Below, in pieces: positions 1,400 through 7,848 of a DNA stretch of 64,000 nt. The stretch comes from Spirochaetota bacterium (lineage in GTDB: Bacteria; Spirochaetota; Spirochaetia; Treponematales; UBA12059). The position numbers were made by a program, and so were the translations under genes. Where the stretch lies: positions 62,001 through 126,000 of the forward strand of contig JADFDI010000004.1 in assembly GCA_018262985.1 (NCBI GenBank). The letters are read 5' to 3'. The stretch's first letter is position 1; each line of letters starts with the position of its first letter. The notes below the pieces were generated by a model. It was not told where the DNA came from. It worked only from the letters and a program-made list of their open reading frames with translations, and ran no database searches.

Positions 1400-1400
1400 C

Positions 1401-1526
1401 AGGGTGTTGAAGAAGTCGCTTGCTTCTTCAACACCCTCCGCATTCTCTCCCGTTCCTTGCGGAACGGTGCGCGAATGCCGCAAAATGGTAGCTGTTGAAA
1501 GCCCGCATTCGCGGCTTTTCAACAGC
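1401..1526 (-). repeat. Three-hairpin structured repeat, copy 1
   Basis: A 126-bp element, 6 substitutions away from copy 2 (6587-6712) and in opposite orientation. On the plus strand it starts with a perfect 15-bp hairpin (arms 1401-1415 and 1423-1437). A central hairpin follows (GCATTC 1440-1445 with GAATGC 1473-1478, inner CGTTCC/GGAACG). It ends with a 13-bp stem carrying a one-base bulge (1491-1503 and 1513-1526). It begins 2 nt after the gnd stop codon. Strand '-' means that the order 'ttgaaaagcc hairpin, core, ttgaagaag hairpin' reads on the minus strand, while copies 2 and 3 read it on the plus strand. A short open frame crosses it but is best explained as chance. Confidence 0.9.
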
Positions 1527-1542
1527 TTGGAAGCAATCGGGC

Positions 1543-1579
1543 GCGGCCGCCCCGGACCGAAGCCTCCCGGGGCGGCCGC
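1543..1579 (+). terminator. Strong GC hairpin between gnd and the zinc dehydrogenase
   Basis: Perfect 13-bp inverted repeat (1543-1555 GCGGCCGCCCCGG, 1567-1579) with an 11-nt loop, followed by TCCTTTTCC. It lies downstream of gnd and 26 nt before the next ATG. It can act as an intrinsic terminator of read-through from gnd or as a leader structure for the next gene. The T-tract is weak. Confidence 0.55.
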
Positions 1580-1605
1580 TCCTTTTCCACCCGAAGGAGC
1601 CGGAC

Positions 1606-2646
1606 ATGAAAGCCCTCGTCCTCGAGGAATACGGAAAGTTCGCCTACCGCGACGCGCCCGACCCGAAGCCTTACGCGCCGGACGAAGTCCTGGTGCGGGT
1701 CAGGGCGGTCGGCATCTGCGGCTCCGACGTGCACGGCATGGACGGCTCGACCGGCCGCCGGCAGCCGCCCCTCATCATGGGCCACGAGGCCGCGGGCGAG
1801 ATCGCCGCGCTCGGCCCCGCCGCCCGCGCCGCCGGCTGGAAGGAGGGCGACCGCGTCACCTTCGACTCGACCGTGTGGTGCGGCGAGTGCGTCGCCTGCC
1901 GCTCGGGCGACGTCAACCTCTGCGACAACCGCAAGGTGCTCGGCGTCTCCTGCGACGAGTACAAGCTCGACGGGGCCTTCGCCGAATACGTGGTCGTCCC
2001 CGCGCGCATCCTCTTCCGCCTGCCCGAGGGCCTGTCCTTCAAGCTCGCCGCCATGGCGGAGCCGGTCGGCGTTGCCATGCACGCGGCCTCGCTGCCGCGC
2101 CTCAAGCCCGGCGCTTCCGTCGCCATAGTCGGCGCGGGCCTCATCGGCCTCATCCTGCTGAAAATCGTCCGCGGCATGACGGCGGGAAAGATCCTCGCGG
2201 TCGACGTGGACCCGGGCCGCCTCGAGACCGCGCTCGCGTTCGGAGCCGACGCCGCCTTCGACGCGCGGGAGGGCGACGTCGTCCGGAAGCTCCGCGAAGC
2301 CGCGGGCGGCCGCGGCGTGGACCTGGCCTTCGAGGTGGCCGGCGCCACCGCTCCCATCGCCACCGCGGTCGAAGCGACGCGGAAAGGCGGCCAGGTGGTC
2401 CTGGTGGGCAACGCGAGCCCGAAGATCGAACTCGCCCTCCAGTCCGTCGTGACGCGGCAAATCTCGCTGCTCGGCTCCTGCGCCATCGCGGGCGAATACC
2501 CCGCCGCGCTCGGGCTCATGGCGCGCGGCAGGCTCGACGTCGACCCGCTCGTCTCCGCCGTCGCGCCGCTCTCCGAAGGCGCCGCCTGGTTCGCTCGCCT
2601 CTACGCGCGCGAAAAGGGCCTCTTCAAGGTGATCCTCGAACCGTAG
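1606..2646 (+). CDS. Zinc-dependent medium-chain alcohol/polyol dehydrogenase
   Basis: 346-residue MDR-superfamily dehydrogenase, similar in layout to sorbitol, galactitol and L-idonate dehydrogenases. Catalytic zinc ligands are visible in GICGSDVHG (Cys) and GHEAAGE (His-Glu). The structural zinc loop CGECVACRSGDVNLC carries four Cys at the usual spacing. The Rossmann signature VAIVGAGLIGL follows, with an acidic residue ending the next strand (VDVDPGR), which favours NAD+. The start has GAAGGAG 6 nt upstream. It lies in a cluster with gnd, a Gfo/Idh oxidoreductase, a PfkB kinase and a LacI regulator, which suggests oxidation of a sugar alcohol or aldonate; the exact substrate cannot be read. 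Confidence 0.9.
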   Translation: MKALVLEEYGKFAYRDAPDPKPYAPDEVLVRVRAVGICGSDVHGMDGSTGRRQPPLIMGHEAAGEIAALGPAARAAGWKEGDRVTFDSTVWCGECVACRSGDVNLCDNRKVLGVSCDEYKLDGAFAEYVVVPARILFRLPEGLSFKLAAMAEPVGVAMHAASLPRLKPGASVAIVGAGLIGLILLKIVRGMTAGKILAVDVDPGRLETALAFGADAAFDAREGDVVRKLREAAGGRGVDLAFEVAGATAPIATAVEATRKGGQVVLVGNASPKIELALQSVVTRQISLLGSCAIAGEYPAALGLMARGRLDVDPLVSAVAPLSEGAAWFARLYAREKGLFKVILEP

Positions 2647-2650
2647 GAAC

Positions 2651-2687
2651 CCTCCGAAATGAACGGGGCTCCGCCCCGATACGGAGG
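2651..2687 (+). terminator. Nested hairpin after the zinc dehydrogenase
   Basis: Outer stem CCTCCG (2651-2656) / CGGAGG (2682-2687) encloses an inner stem CGGGG (2664-2668) / CCCCG (2674-2678). It begins 5 nt after the stop codon and touches repeat copy 3 at base 2687. It lacks a T-tract, so the terminator role is tentative. Confidence 0.4.
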
Positions 2688-2810
2688 CTGATCGAAAATT
2701 CCGGAGGAATTATTCGATCAGCTTCATGAATGAGACATTCGCGCACGGCATCGTGGGTGCCGGAGCGAATGTGAGGTCTGTCCCCTCCGTAACCGACGGA
2801 GTGGACAGAC
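2687..2810 (+). repeat. Three-hairpin structured repeat, diverged copy 3
   Basis: A 124-bp element with the same layout as copy 2 but different stem sequences. Hairpin B spans 2687-2722, 36 nt as in copy 2 (GCTGATCGAA / TTCGATCAGC). The core stem ACATTCGC (2735-2742) pairs perfectly with GCGAATGT (2765-2772), exactly 48 nt into the element as in copy 2. The inner stem is GGCA/TGCC, with the invariant GCAC and GGA on the two sides of the internal loop. The last hairpin is GTCTGTCC (2776-2783) / GGACAGAC (2803-2810) with an inner CTCCGT/ACGGAG stem. Pairing is kept although the bases differ, which points to selection on structure. Confidence 0.8.
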
Positions 2811-2856
2811 CGCCTCTCGGCTATCCCATCCCCGCCCGTCCGGGCAAGGAGAGCGC

Positions 2857-3324
2857 ATGGCGCGCATCGAGTTCGAGGCGGAAATCAGGAAGGCGGAAGC
2901 CGGCGCGGGCGCCTGGGTGGAGATACCCTTCGACGTCCCCGCGCGTTTCGGCGGCAAGGCCCGGGTCAAGGTGAAGGCCGAGCTCGGCGGCGCGCCCTAC
3001 CGCGGTTCGCTCGTGCGCATGGGGGGCGGGTGCCACGTGCTCGGGGTGCGCAAGGACATCCTCGAGATCATCGGCAAGAAGGTCGGCGACACGGTCCATG
3101 TCTCGCTCGAGGAGGACCTCGAGGAGCGGAGCGTCGAGCCGCACCCGGCCCTCGTCGCCGCGCTCGACGCGGAGCCTACGCTGAAGGCGGCCTACGAGGC
3201 GCTTTCCTACACGGCGCGGAAGGAAGCGCGGCGCTCGCTCGACGAGGCGAAGAAGCCGGAGACCCTCGAAAGGCGGCTCGCCGCCTTCATTGAATCGTTG
3301 CGCGCGAGGCGCGGAGGGAAGTGA
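2857..3324 (+). CDS. DUF1905/YdeI (OmdA)-family protein
   Basis: 155-residue cytosolic protein with an N-terminal DUF1905 beta-barrel-like domain (residues about 3-85, with the typical W-x-E-I-P-F-D-V segment and VRKDILEIIGKKVGDTV). A helical YdeI/OmdA tail follows (LSYTARKEARRSLDEAKKPETLERR). Members are widespread small proteins of unclear biochemical role, often described as osmotic-stress or bacteriocin-protection related. AAGGAG lies 6 nt before the ATG. The stop codon precedes the next ATG by 2 nt, so it is co-transcribed with the Gfo/Idh gene. I see no catalytic motif. Confidence 0.85.
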   Translation: MARIEFEAEIRKAEAGAGAWVEIPFDVPARFGGKARVKVKAELGGAPYRGSLVRMGGGCHVLGVRKDILEIIGKKVGDTVHVSLEEDLEERSVEPHPALVAALDAEPTLKAAYEALSYTARKEARRSLDEAKKPETLERRLAAFIESLRARRGGK

Positions 3325-3326
3325 CC

Positions 3327-4406
3327 ATGGGCAAGCTCAGGGCGGGCGTCATCGGCTACGGGAAGATCGCGCGCACCCACGCGCGCATGCTCGCGCGCGA
3401 CCCGGACTGCGCCTTCGTCGCCGCGTGCGGCCGCGACCCGGGCAAAGCCGACGCCTTCGCGCGCGAATTCGGCGGCTCGGGCCACGCGGGCGTCGCGGAG
3501 ATGGTGGAGCGCGAAAAGCTCGACCTGGTCCTCGTCGCGACGCCCCACCCCCTCCACGCGGAGCACGCGGTTGCGGCGCTCGGCGCTGGCGCGCACGTCC
3601 TCGTGGAAAAACCGCTCGCGCTCAGCGTGGCCGAGTGCGACGCCATGATCGCGGCGGCCGAGCGGGCGGGACGGACCCTCGGCGCGTTCAGCCAAAGGCG
3701 CTGGTACCCTCCCGTCCGCCGCGTCAAGGACGCCATCGACGCGGGGAAGCTCGGGACCCCCGTCCTCGGCGAGGCCGTCATGCTCGGCTGGCGCGACGAG
3801 GCCTACTACCGCTCCGACCCCTGGCGCGGCTCGTGGAAGGGCGAAGGCGGCGGCGTGCTCGTCAACCAGGCGCCCCACCCGCTCGACATCCTGCTCTGGT
3901 TCATGGGGAAGGCCGTGGAGGTGAAAGCCTACTGGGCGAACCTCAACCACCCCTACATCGAGGTGGAGGACACGGCCGTCGCCAGCGTGCGCTTCGCCTC
4001 GGGCGCGCTCGCGTCCGTCACCGTGTCGAATTCTCAGAAGCCCGGGCTCTACGCCCGCGTCCACGCGCACGGCTCGAACGGTGCCTCGGCCGGGGTGCAG
4101 ACCGACGGCGGCGCCATGTTCGTGGCCGGCATGACGGGCGTCCTCGAGGCGCCCTACGTCGACCTCTGGACCGTCCCCGGCGAGGAAGGCGAAATCGCGC
4201 GCTGGAAGGCCGAGGACGCCGCCTGGTTCGCGTCGATCGACCCCACCGAGCATTTCCACGCCCTCCAGATCCGCGACTTCGCCGAGGCGGTCCGGTACGG
4301 CCGCGAACCCGCCGTCACCGCGCGCGAAGGCCGCGCCGTGGTCGAGCTCGTCGAGGCCATCTACAAGTCGGGCAGGACAGGCGAAGCGGTGAAGCTGCCG
4401 ATCTAG
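3327..4406 (+). CDS. Gfo/Idh/MocA-family NAD(P)-dependent oxidoreductase
   Basis: 359 residues. The N-terminal Rossmann fold carries GVIGYGKIARTHARML and ATPHPLHAEHAVAALGAGAHVLVEKPLA, where EKP holds the catalytic-region Lys of the family. The C-terminal substrate-binding domain includes GGGVLVNQAPHPLDILLWFMG. Such enzymes oxidise or epimerise cyclic sugars, inositols or sugar acids with NAD(P)+. The start was set at ATG 3327 because GGAGG lies just upstream and the preceding stop codon overlaps the alternative GTG at 3321. The neighbours (zinc dehydrogenase, sugar kinase, 6-phosphogluconate dehydrogenase) fit a sugar-acid pathway. Substrate unknown. Confidence 0.92.
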   Translation: MGKLRAGVIGYGKIARTHARMLARDPDCAFVAACGRDPGKADAFAREFGGSGHAGVAEMVEREKLDLVLVATPHPLHAEHAVAALGAGAHVLVEKPLALSVAECDAMIAAAERAGRTLGAFSQRRWYPPVRRVKDAIDAGKLGTPVLGEAVMLGWRDEAYYRSDPWRGSWKGEGGGVLVNQAPHPLDILLWFMGKAVEVKAYWANLNHPYIEVEDTAVASVRFASGALASVTVSNSQKPGLYARVHAHGSNGASAGVQTDGGAMFVAGMTGVLEAPYVDLWTVPGEEGEIARWKAEDAAWFASIDPTEHFHALQIRDFAEAVRYGREPAVTAREGRAVVELVEAIYKSGRTGEAVKLPI

Positions 4407-4407
4407 C

Positions 4408-4447
4408 TGCCGGTCGCTGCCGGTCGCGGCCGGTCGCGGCCGGTCGC
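4408..4447. repeat. Four tandem 10-bp repeats
   Basis: Two copies of TGCCGGTCGC followed by two of GGCCGGTCGC, directly after the stop of the Gfo/Idh gene and within the 85-bp gap between convergent genes. Its function is unknown; slippage-prone simple repeats of this type are usually neutral. Confidence 0.8.
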
Positions 4448-4491
4448 ACCCCGCGCCGTCCCGCGGCACGCTCACGAGTCGACGCGGCCCC

Positions 4492-5283
4492 TCACTCCGG
4501 CGCGGTGAAGATGACGCGGGGCGGGCCGTCGGCGCGCGCCACCTCGTAGCGGTAGTCGTGCAACGAATCCATGAACGTCGAGTAGTCGTAGCGGCGGCCG
4601 GCCCCGGCGCTCCGGTCGCCGTTGTCGTTGGTGATGAATTCGCCGGTCGCGTCGTCGTAGCCCTTCAGCACGAGGGTGTGGAACGAGGAGCCCGTCGGCA
4701 GGAAGGGGATGTTCGGGTTCCCCAGCGCGAAGCCGTAATGGAAGGTCATGATCGGCCGCCCCTCGCGGAGCTCGCGCTTCAAGTCCTCGAGCGCGGGATT
4801 CTCCACGATGGTCGCGCGGAAGCCGGCGGCCTCCACGATAATGCGCGCCGAGCGGGCCGCGTCCGAGTTGGCGTTCGAGCGGTAGAGGCCGTCCTGGAAC
4901 GCGAAGAGCCTTCGAAGGTACGGAATCGCCTCGGCGTCCGGGACCTCGAGCCGCCCCTCGTAATAGTGCGCGATCATGGCGATGCTCGCTTCCTCGCAGG
5001 CGTTCACCCAGGGCGAGCCGGAGACGCCCTCCGGCATCTCGGGGATGAAGGGCACGGGAAGCTCGACGTGTTCGGCGGCGGAGGCGAAGGGTTCCGTCGG
5101 CCGCCGGATGCCCGCGGTCGGGACAGCGCCCTCGGACGGGCCGGGGGCCACCGAATCCGGCTCATGCGCCGACGCGGGCTCGACGAAGCCGCCTCTCCAG
5201 CCCTCGGCGCCGCCGAGCGCCAGGAAGGCCGTCACGAGGAGCGCCACGAGGATGCCGGCCGGGTACACGATTCCGTTCCGCAC
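4492..5283 (-). CDS. Exported C39-like cysteine peptidase family protein
   Basis: 263 residues. An N-terminal hydrophobic segment (about residues 6-24, GILVALLVTAFLALGG) acts as a signal peptide or anchor, followed by a Pro/Ala-rich linker and a papain-like fold of the C39-like (peptidase_C39_2) type. The catalytic Cys is in NACEEASIAMI, the His in SFHTLVLKGYDD and the Asp/Asn in FITNDNG. It probably acts outside the cytoplasmic membrane on peptides or as a processing enzyme; the substrate is unknown. The only sensible start is GTG 5283. No Shine-Dalgarno is present; TATCTT at 5296-5291 ends 7 nt upstream, so translation may be leaderless. It is convergent with the preceding oxidoreductase gene. 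Confidence 0.8.
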   Translation of the reverse strand: MRNGIVYPAGILVALLVTAFLALGGAEGWRGGFVEPASAHEPDSVAPGPSEGAVPTAGIRRPTEPFASAAEHVELPVPFIPEMPEGVSGSPWVNACEEASIAMIAHYYEGRLEVPDAEAIPYLRRLFAFQDGLYRSNANSDAARSARIIVEAAGFRATIVENPALEDLKRELREGRPIMTFHYGFALGNPNIPFLPTGSSFHTLVLKGYDDATGEFITNDNGDRSAGAGRRYDYSTFMDSLHDYRYEVARADGPPRVIFTAPE

Positions 5284-5422
5284 GGTGCAAAAGATAGCGC
5301 GGCGCGCGGCGCGGGGGGAAGGCGCGCGGCCATCCGCGTCGGTTCGGGCGCCGCCCCGGAGCTCGATGGCGCCCCCGCCGCCTCGGGGAGGGCAAGGCGA
5401 GCTTGCGGCCCCGGCGCCTGTT

Positions 5423-5452
5423 CCGCCGTTCCTCCCGGAGGGGGAACGGCGG
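5423..5452 (-). terminator. Hairpin downstream of the PfkB kinase
   Basis: Perfect 10-bp stem CCGCCGTTCC (5423-5432) / GGAACGGCGG (5443-5452), 11 nt after the kinase stop codon on the minus strand. There is no T-tract, so it is either a weak intrinsic terminator or an RNA 3'-end stabiliser. It lies in the 180-bp gap before the C39-like gene. Confidence 0.5.
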
Positions 5453-5463
5453 CCATCTTCTTC

Positions 5464-6552
5464 TTAACGCTGGATTCTGGCGGAGCCGCCCTTGGCGAAG
5501 GCTTCCACCTGGTCGAGCGTGGCCATGCTGGTGTCGCCGGGGAAGGTGGTGACGAGGGCGCCGTGGGCCCAGCCGAGGCGGAGGGCCTCCTCGGGTTCGC
5601 GGCCCGCGAGGAGGCCGTGGAAAAGGCCGGCCGCGAAGCCGTCGCCGCCGCCGACGCGGTCGTAGACGTCGAGCTCGGCGGTCGGGCTGGTCCACGATTC
5701 GCCGCCCATCCAGAGCACCGCTCCCCAGGAGTGGCGGTTGGTCGAATGGACTTCGCGCAGGGTGGTGGCCACGGCCTTGACGTTCGGCAGGTCGCGCGCG
5801 ACGGATTCCATCATGCCGAAGAAGGCGGCGGGATCGAGCTTGGAGCCTTTGTGCCCGACCTCGGGGCCTTTGAGGCCGAGGCCCTTCTGGAGGTCCTCCT
5901 CGTTGCCCACCAGGACGTCGACGTGGCGGACGATCTCGCGCAGGGTTTCCACGGCCTTGCCCTCGCCGCCGGCCGCGGCCCAGAGCTTGGCGCGGAAGTT
6001 GAGGTCGAAGCTGGTAACGGCGCCCGCGGCCTTGGCCGCCTTCATGGCCTCGATGACGAGGGCGGGCGTGGTGGGCGAGAGCGCGGCGAAGATGCCGCCG
6101 GAGTGGAACCAGCGGACGCCGCGCGAGAAGATTTCCTTCCAGTCGAAGGCGCCGGGGGCGAGCAGGGCGGCGGCCTCGTTGGCGCGGTTGTAGAAGACCA
6201 CCGGCGCGCGCACGCCCTGTCCCCGATCGCTCCAGACCGTGGCCATGTTCGGGCCGCGGACGCCGTCGTGGGCGAAGCGCTTCCAGTACGGCGCGACGCC
6301 GAGCGCCCGCACGGCGTTCTCGACGCGTCTTCCTATGGGGTAGTCCACGATGGCGCTCGCGATGGCGGCGCGCCTGCCGAAGCACGAGGCGAGGTTCGCG
6401 GCGACGTTGTATTCGCCGCCGGAGACGTGCAGGTCGTAGCGGTCCGCGCGCTCGAATGGGACGATGCCCGGGTCGAGGCGGGTGACGAGGGCGCCGAGGG
6501 CGAGGAAGTCGTGGGCGGCGCGGTCGGCGGGCGGGATCTCGAGTCTGGCCAT
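5464..6552 (-). CDS. PfkB-family sugar kinase, probably 2-dehydro-3-deoxygluconokinase-like
   Basis: 362-residue ribokinase-fold kinase. The substrate-side motif GGEYNVAANLASCFGRR is near residue 45. The C-terminal PfkB signature DVYDRVGGGDGFAAGL carries the catalytic Asp in GGGDG and the anion hole. KDG kinases have this general layout but are usually about 310 residues; the extra length lies in the middle (about residues 225-290). The start at ATG 6552 has AAGGAG 8 nt upstream. Together with gnd and the two oxidoreductases it suggests phosphorylation of a sugar acid such as 2-keto-3-deoxygluconate (inference); fructokinase or another sugar specificity cannot be excluded. Repeat copy 2 lies 34 bp upstream, between this gene and the LacI regulator. 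Confidence 0.85.
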   Translation of the reverse strand: MARLEIPPADRAAHDFLALGALVTRLDPGIVPFERADRYDLHVSGGEYNVAANLASCFGRRAAIASAIVDYPIGRRVENAVRALGVAPYWKRFAHDGVRGPNMATVWSDRGQGVRAPVVFYNRANEAAALLAPGAFDWKEIFSRGVRWFHSGGIFAALSPTTPALVIEAMKAAKAAGAVTSFDLNFRAKLWAAAGGEGKAVETLREIVRHVDVLVGNEEDLQKGLGLKGPEVGHKGSKLDPAAFFGMMESVARDLPNVKAVATTLREVHSTNRHSWGAVLWMGGESWTSPTAELDVYDRVGGGDGFAAGLFHGLLAGREPEEALRLGWAHGALVTTFPGDTSMATLDQVEAFAKGGSARIQR

Positions 6553-6586
6553 GGCGGTCTCCTTCGGTTTGGGTCGGGACTGGCAG

Positions 6587-6712
6587 GCTGTTGAAAAGCC
6601 GCGAAGGCGGGCTTTCAACAGCTACCTTAATGCGGCATTCGCGCACCGTTCCGCAAGGAACGGGAGCGAATGCGGAGGGTGTTGAAGAAGTAAGCGACTT
6701 CTTCAACACCCT
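6587..6712 (+). repeat. Three-hairpin structured repeat, copy 2
   Basis: 126 bp, identical to copy 1 at 120 positions. Hairpin B covers 6587-6622 (arms GCTGTTGAAAAGCC / GGCTTTCAACAGC). The core stem GCATTCGC (6635-6642) pairs with GCGAATGC (6666-6673) around an internal loop GCAC (6643-6646) / GGA (6663-6665) and an inner stem CGTTCC / GGAACG. Hairpin A is a perfect 16-bp stem (6676-6691 with 6697-6712). It lies 1 nt beyond the LacI stop codon (minus strand). Relative to the gene whose stop it follows, it has the same orientation as copy 1 has to gnd. Confidence 0.9.
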
Positions 6713-6713
6713 G

Positions 6714-7715
6714 CTAGGCTTTCGCGGAGGCCGGCGCGGGCGCCGAGGCGCGCGGGACCGGCTCCGTGAGGAAGGTGCGCGATTCGAACGGGGCTCCTTC
6801 GGCGAGTCGGGCGTTCACCGTCTCGAACAGGGCTTCGCCGAGGTCCTGCCCGGCCTGGCGGATGCTCGAGAGCGGCGGGTCGAGGAAGGGCGCCCAAGCT
6901 TCGTCGTCGAAGCCCACGAGGGCGAGGTCGCGGGGCACGCGGATGTCGTAGCCCGGCAGGGCGGCGAGGAGCCCGGCGGCCATGCGGTCGTTGTGGCAGA
7001 GCAGGGCGTCGGGGCGTTCGCTGGCGCGGGCGAAGATGGCCTCGGCGGCTTCGCGCCCGCCCTCGAAGCCTTTCCCGGTATGGAACACCAGGGCCGGATC
7101 GGGGACGAGGCCCGCTTCCTCGAGCCCGCGCTTCCAGCCCGCGATCCGTTCGTCGGCGCGGAAGTCCTCCACGAGCAGGGCCACGCGCCGCCTGCCCGAG
7201 GCGACGAGCGAGGCCGTGGCCGCGCGGTAGCCTTCGGAGCGGTCGATGTAGAACGCCGGGTACGCGACCTTGCCGGGCGGGTCGACGAGCAGGAAGGGGA
7301 AGCCTTCCTCGGCCAGGCGGTCGAGGACGGCGGCGCGCGGGCCGGGACGGTTGGAAAAGAGGACGAGGGCGTCGGAGCGCATCGAAAGCTCGCGGATCTC
7401 GCGCTCCTCGGCGTCGAGGCCGTCGGCCCAGGCCACCATGACCGCGTAGCCTAGGGGACCGAAGCGTCGCGCGACGGTCTCGACGCGGCGCATGGTGGTG
7501 TCGCTCGCGACGGCGTTCACCACGATGGCGACGACGCGGCGGCGCTTGGTTTTGAGCGAGCGGGCGCCCGGGTCGGGCCGATAGTCGAGGCGCGCCATGA
7601 CGGCGAGCACCCGCTCGCGCGTCCCGGCCTCGACGGCGTCGGAGCCGTTGAGCACCCGCGAGACCGTCCGCGCCGAGACGCACGCCTCGCGCGCTATGTC
7701 ATGGATGGTGGGCAT
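6714..7715 (-). CDS. LacI-family transcriptional regulator
   Basis: 333 residues with an N-terminal LacI helix-turn-helix and hinge (TIHDIAREACVSARTVSRVL, then YRPDPGARSLKTKR). A periplasmic-binding-protein-like effector domain follows, with the conserved end signature ALVGFDDEAWAPFLDPPLSS. It is probably the local regulator of the sugar-acid genes, with a sugar or sugar-acid effector. GGGAGGGAAG precedes ATG 7715. The stop codon is 1 nt from repeat copy 2, which therefore separates it from the PfkB kinase gene on the same strand. No clear repeated operator was found in front of the putative target genes; one candidate lies upstream of this gene itself. Confidence 0.92.
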   Translation of the reverse strand: MPTIHDIAREACVSARTVSRVLNGSDAVEAGTRERVLAVMARLDYRPDPGARSLKTKRRRVVAIVVNAVASDTTMRRVETVARRFGPLGYAVMVAWADGLDAEEREIRELSMRSDALVLFSNRPGPRAAVLDRLAEEGFPFLLVDPPGKVAYPAFYIDRSEGYRAATASLVASGRRRVALLVEDFRADERIAGWKRGLEEAGLVPDPALVFHTGKGFEGGREAAEAIFARASERPDALLCHNDRMAAGLLAALPGYDIRVPRDLALVGFDDEAWAPFLDPPLSSIRQAGQDLGEALFETVNARLAEGAPFESRTFLTEPVPRASAPAPASAKA

Positions 7716-7778
7716 GGCGCTTCCCTCCCCGCCGCGGCTTCCCTCCCGATTGCCGGCATTCCGGCGCGGGCAGGCGGG

Positions 7779-7792
7779 TGCCATCGGTGGCA
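7779..7792. promoter_or_regulatory. Possible LacI-type operator
   Basis: Palindrome TGCCATCGGTGGCA (5-bp arms), 64 bp upstream of the LacI gene in its 133-bp upstream gap, close to TATGGT on the minus strand. It could be an autoregulatory operator. The evidence is only symmetry and position. Confidence 0.25.
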
Positions 7793-7848
7793 TCACCATT
7801 AACCATAGCGATTCGCGGCGGCGAGGGCAAGGGGAGCGAGGGAGGGGA

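Follow-up and report, generated by a model that had tools for sequence, protein, structure and literature searches.

What keeps the fold of a repeat whose letters change? The question is raised by three short repeats in the window (the whole 64,000-nucleotide stretch of spirochaete DNA analyzed here). The initial annotation, made from the letters alone, described each as a row of three hairpins with compensatory stem changes and proposed a structured RNA or a protein-bound DNA fold. The three copies lie where they were reported and fold as described, with RNA folding z-scores of -10.2, -8.5, and -10.6 for copies 1, 2, and 3, and the sequence of all three has the core hairpin exactly 48 nt in. 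The reported length of 124 to 126 bp falls a few bases short for copies 1 and 3, in which the full element is 130 bp and runs CA...TG. Overall, the window copies measure 126 to 130 bp and contain no transposase open reading frame (ORF). They are listed here with their flanks, their parts, and the scores of their matches to a covariance model (CM).

1400..1529, minus strand: copy 1, probable three-hairpin MITE; CM match of 137 bits
1401-1437: hairpin A of copy 1
1440-1478: core hairpin of copy 1
1491-1526: hairpin B of copy 1
2686..2811, plus strand: copy 2, diverged; CM match of 128 bits
2687-2722: hairpin B of copy 2
2735-2772: core hairpin of copy 2
2775-2811: hairpin A of copy 2
6580..6583: left flank of copy 3, CTGG, a degenerate version of the YTAR target duplication (from sequence)
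6584..6713, plus strand: copy 3; CM match of 145 bits, z-score of -10.6
6587-6622: hairpin B of copy 3
6635-6673: core hairpin of copy 3
6676-6712: hairpin A of copy 3
6714..6717: right flank of copy 3, CTAG (YTAR; from sequence and ORF 6714-7799)

The pattern TTCGCGCAC-N8-30-GGAGNGAA occurs three times in the window and was absent from 100 shuffles. Folding of the opposite strand gave z-scores of -7.9 to -10.4, compared to -8.5 to -10.6 on the strand originally read; given this similarity, the element folds nearly equally well on either strand. The initial annotation counted 6 differences in 126 positions between copies 1 and 2. The count holds for the copies at 1401 and 6587, the labels of copies 2 and 3 having been swapped. 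These six differences include no compensatory change: four fall at unpaired positions, and each of the other two disrupts a pair in copy 1. The compensatory changes are found in the copy at 2687, whose stems are rewritten yet paired and whose two ends are no longer alike, and in a fourth copy elsewhere in the genome (C17:4279-4406), which differs from the 6587 copy at 10 positions that include three two-sided exchanges. Copies 1 and 3 both border on stop codons: the TGA at 1397-1399 of the upstream gene directly adjoins copy 1, and the stop codon of a minus-strand LacI-type gene (ORF 6714-7799) lies inside the CTAG flank of copy 3.

Insertion sites and target duplication

At least 84 copies of the element occur in one relative, Spirochaetes bacterium GWB1_60_80, and we read the flanks of 84 distinct insertion sites in this genome. 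YTAR tetranucleotides were present on both sides at every site, and at 79 of the 84 they formed identical direct repeats. Because YTAR includes palindromes, sites with a nonpalindromic left flank are the deciding cases; 32 of these 33 sites showed a direct repeat, and none showed an inverted one. The YTAR repeats at the GWB1_60_80 insertions are a 4-bp target duplication, which in the window copies is degenerate. More than half of the GWB1_60_80 copies (55/84) are identical to the consensus, indicating a recent burst. In the same genome (L106:3500-4560), a 422-bp unit comprising the element and a gene start is repeated in tandem, which results in three elements in a row.

A sister species provides a second view of mobility. 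At its site orthologous to that of copy 1, the flanks almost touch, separated by about 6 bp instead of about 142, so copy 1 is polymorphic for presence and absence. An ortholog of copy 2 occupies the corresponding position in this species.

Hairpins A and B have versions of the terminal repeat in their arms. Solo hairpins of 42 to 45 bp with YTAR-like flanks of their own were detected in four genomes (G015, G010, G017, and G005), which suggests that a single hairpin may be mobile by itself; these hairpins (L145, L151, L154, L156, L170, and L171) are possibly the smallest mobile units of their kind.

Element ends and a candidate transposase

The element starts with CAGGnTGTTGAAA and finishes in its inverse, that is, it has terminal inverted repeats. 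Similarity between the two ends is higher within an element (0.71) than between elements (0.60 +/- 0.02; 0 of 2,000 shuffles). The ends of copy 2 and of a further copy on contig C16 match no identified transposon.

We searched five carrier genomes for CAGGnTGTTGAAA ends. Assemblies break at repeated insertion sequences, and in RA.bin110 (G015) two unpaired CAGGnTGTTGAAA ends were located at contig ends. At the contig end C2:176387 of this genome, the repeat TTAACAGGCTGTTGAAA is followed by an ORF start, MRGMEEKQIDAFCYISMEDRI. A search with this peptide hit 13 plasmid records, all matched over the full length of the peptide, each single E-value being weak, and the gene annotated at the match in 11 of the 13 was an IS5-family transposase in all 11 cases. 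On plasmids, ISPst12 and a Thauera IS5 have the ends CTAG-CAGGCCGTTGAAAAA and CTAA-CAGGTTGTTGA, with CTAG on the far side. An order-wide protein search detected an IS5 protein in G068, a genome of the same order, that is 52% identical to the Thauera IS5 protein; the ends of this IS5 are CTAA-CAGGCTGTTGAAAT and ATTTCAACAGCCTG-CTAT, and its N-terminus, MRGNEEKQIDAFIYVSMEDRI, is nearly that of the G015 ORF start. At the level of sequence, these comparisons show the ends and target of the three-hairpin element to be those of IS5-family, ISPst12-like insertion sequences.

The draft assemblies of the window's genome and the richest carriers yielded no complete IS5 transposase, and a search of 14 carriers for DUF772/PF05598 and DDE_Tnp_1/PF01609 likewise detected none in these genomes. 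In G015, fragments of IS5 transposases are present at contig ends; the longer genes detected all belong to other members of the order. The missing gene has to be weighed against the draft status of the assemblies, because G015 lost such copies at contig ends.

Another transposase family touches a neighboring class of the element. IS1182 (NF033551) is present in some of 59 genomes, mostly noncarriers. The IS1182 copy of G058 (L078) has the ends GGGGCTGTCCAAAAA, which are also those of the three-hairpin class of G046 and G058 (L030/L031), two genomes that we infer to be Treponema. IS1182 ends match this presumed-Treponema class only, and both ends and target are unlike those of the CAGG/YTAR class to which the window copies belong. 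A complete IS1182-like transposase gene with the ends GGGGCTGTC and a terminal hairpin was also observed in the window's own genus (L110, G002:C187).

Taken together, we consider it very probable that the copies are nonautonomous MITEs of about 130 bp with IS5-type ends, served in trans by an IS5-family transposase and with their fold kept in master copies. The initial annotation missed this transposon-derived identity, with its terminal inverted repeats, 4-bp target duplication, and IS5-type ends. The element is short, does not encode a transposase, shares terminal inverted repeats with an insertion sequence, duplicates its target, and is polymorphic for presence and absence, as MITEs are. 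A borrowed IS5-type transposase is the most likely agent of its spread. Such an enzyme would act in trans, and insertion would occur mostly at stop codons and gene 3' ends, where harm is small. Each end is a hairpin of the terminal repeat and its own inverted copy, and the two flank the central hairpin. Copies able to fold would be favored in spreading, so that the fold would persist among the propagating masters rather than serve the host at individual sites. In the same order, classes whose ends differ would depend on other transposases; the presumed-Treponema class has IS1182-like ends. We know of no IS5 mechanism that requires the conserved core hairpin.

Distribution in the genome and in relatives

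Two further copies were detected in the window's genome (22 contigs, 3.44 Mb): C17:4279-4406 and C16:170374-170498, the latter diverged and with ends unlike each other. Of the five copies in this genome, four are clustered in a 65-kb stretch of a single contig (C17:4279-68712). With a covariance model built from five copies, a type of search suggested in the initial annotation, and a threshold of E <= 1, the 126-nt layout was matched in 21 of the 59 genomes searched (15 of 48 among good genomes) and at least 59 times in one genome, although some of the weak matches close to the threshold are spurious. A distinct subclass of 165 nt in G051 (L090-L093) has the ends GAGGCTGTCC and flanks that resemble an AATY duplication instead of YTAR.

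The ends extend beyond the phylum. A scan for the end motifs at MITE distance, covering 84,980 species with a single genome apiece, found at least 120 stretches in many phyla. We applied the covariance model to 100 of these loci, and it matched 15 of 17 from Spirochaetota and 0 of 83 others. Among the loci listed in this sample, the three-hairpin interior is confined to spirochaetes and the ends are cross-phylum. IS5 (ISPst12-like) insertion sequences and the MITEs of other phyla are like the three-hairpin element in their CAGGnTGTTGAAA terminal repeat and 4-bp YTAR target duplication, and the MITEs are also of similar length (about 120 to 141 bp without flanks). In contrast to the insertion sequences, the three-hairpin element has no transposase gene, and the MITEs of other phyla have other interiors; in Gammaproteobacteria, for example, it is a single long and imperfect palindrome that includes CTCAAAATGCTCATTTAC. 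The core CTCAAAATGCTCATTTAC...GTAAACTGCGC recurs in IS5-ended MITEs of Gammaproteobacteria and Desulfobacterota (among L226-L339).

ERIC/IRU, Correia, and RUP-type MITEs are palindromic, intergenic, nonautonomous elements of about 100 to 150 bp (127 bp for ERIC). The three-hairpin element is similar in size and kind but differs in ends and target, and copy 3 had no sequence match in 5,426 Escherichia coli genomes, where ERIC occurs. DNA similarity searches of plasmid, phage, and E. coli sequences gave no match, and the titles and abstracts of open-access literature on spirochaete or IS5 MITEs contained no description of the element.

Covariation and conserved parts

We aligned 30 diverse copies without using structure. 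On this alignment RNAalifold predicted 34 pairs, and two-sided changes occur at every one of them; paired cells amounted to 89.6%, compared to 62.5% after shuffling, and two-sided cells numbered 267, compared to 87. The covariation score was 0.688, whereas shuffled alignments scored 0.218 and slid alignments at most 0.177, with relatedness only partly controlled. The covariation proposed in the initial annotation is real, and it extends over the stems of different genera; the internal loop that it called fixed is better described as semifixed. The core hairpin mostly keeps a GCA/GA internal loop (G in 28/30, C in 20/29, and A in 27/30 copies; on the opposite side, G in 24/30 and A in 27/30), which is absent from the L097/L100 and presumed-Treponema classes. 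The AACCG loop of hairpin A (C in 28/30, G in 29/30) and a linker around CTWCCTTAATG are also conserved. In some classes, the G015 class L097/L100 and the presumed-Treponema class L030/L031, the core is perfectly palindromic.

Within GWB1_60_80, distinct substitutions numbered 4 in 88 paired columns versus 12 in 41 unpaired columns (Fisher p = 0.0002), and none breaks a pair; the counts are low, and the pattern used to collect the copies was loosely anchored at the ends. Most of the variants are common to several copies, indicating that they were passed through transposition. Because the variants passed on in this way spare the pairs, the data suggest that foldability matters for spreading in this genome. 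Copy 1, which is old and has lost pairs, is as expected without upkeep in place.

Paired changes can also be made without selection for folding, by template switching within hairpins (quasi-palindrome correction). Changes do come in blocks on both arms, as in the three two-sided exchanges between the 6587 and C17:4279 copies, and the perfectly palindromic core of two classes also fits this process. However, template switching should erase the asymmetric GCA/GA loop, in which G, A, and the opposite A are kept in 28, 27, and 27 of 30 copies, and it leaves the conserved linker and apical loop unexplained. We regard it as possible but rather unlikely as the source of the covariation, and it would affect how the covariation arose but leave the element a MITE.

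Alternative explanations for the element

A functional structured RNA, either an sRNA or a cis-regulatory element, might have been spread by transposition and kept by the host for its RNA role. Strong covariation at all pairs, unpaired motifs that are common across genera (the AACCG loop, the linker, and the GCA/GA internal loop), and the retention of copy 2 at the same place in two species fit this explanation. Strandedness does not: relative to flanking genes (ORF-based calls), copies in tandem settings showed no clear preference (sense:antisense 10:19 and 7:6), and local GC skew, a weak test of the replication strand, revealed no bias. The ratio of G-T to A-C mismatches was 35:22 when every row was counted and 13:12 when each cluster contributed a single row, and this near equality counters a strand-specific RNA because an RNA fold on that strand should favor G-U. 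No promoter-like site was found near the copies. No Rfam family exceeded its gathering cutoff, and a low threshold brought up nothing relevant, in line with the initial annotation, which knew of no named family. The 55 identical copies in GWB1_60_80 indicate recent spread, not long service. Overall, this explanation is quite improbable. A strand-specific functional RNA is not favored, and of the two natures first proposed, the DNA fold comes closest, the protein most likely being a transposase. Recruitment by genes as a bidirectional transcription terminator or 3'-end mRNA stabilizer is improbable as well. Copies do lie mostly at 3' ends, with convergent:divergent gene pairs of 13:1 in G015 and 17:6 in GWB1_60_80, and a stop codon falls inside the YTAR duplication in 31 of 61 long upstream frames, where one third would be expected. 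Such positions are also explained by the TAA/TAG within YTAR together with selection against insertions into genes and promoters. Moreover, the copies have no T-tract, and a terminator scan gave matches at chance level that lay outside the copies; the earlier view that this is not a simple terminator stands.

The position of three-hairpin elements, which carry hairpins in intergenic sites, also recalls REP, BIME, and REPIN repeats, short palindromes that a RAYT (Y1/HuH) transposase would move on single-stranded DNA. The window's genome contains six Y1_Tnp (RAYT) genes, on C1, C6, C11, C16, C18, and C19 (L007-L012), and one of them (L010) has beside it several AGCTCTGTCCCC repeats that resemble hairpin A in copy 2. 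Nevertheless, a simple hairpin scan detected no three-hairpin copy at the six RAYT loci, the ends match a DDE insertion sequence, and, to our knowledge, HuH transposition does not yield a 4-bp direct target duplication. With its DDE-type target duplication, terminal inverted repeats, three fixed hairpins, and conserved core, the element differs from REP-type repeats, and we found neither HuH mobility without target duplication nor an association with RAYT. The RAYT genes are present and the target duplications argue against their involvement; a RAYT/REP origin is highly improbable, and we rejected it.

Implications

The unusual part of this finding is that the same three-hairpin fold is kept across spirochaetes while its letters have changed almost completely. 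One tentative idea, which we consider improbable, is that the three-hairpin interior is a chassis for different transposases, with IS5-type ends in most genera and IS1182-type ends in Treponema, and that the hairpin ends let a DDE transposase act on single-stranded DNA. A hairpin would offer such an enzyme a double-stranded end on single-stranded DNA, for example, at a replication fork, and folding would be part of transposition.

Returning to the MITE with IS5-type ends, a structured repeat without an Rfam family has been resolved into a mobile element, whereas covariation alone would have suggested a new RNA. The case cautions that transposon ends folded on themselves can produce covariation in a dispersed repeat. 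It also presents a MITE whose interior retains its fold from genus to genus as both sequence and ends change, and it makes testable whether DDE transposases respond to hairpin structure.
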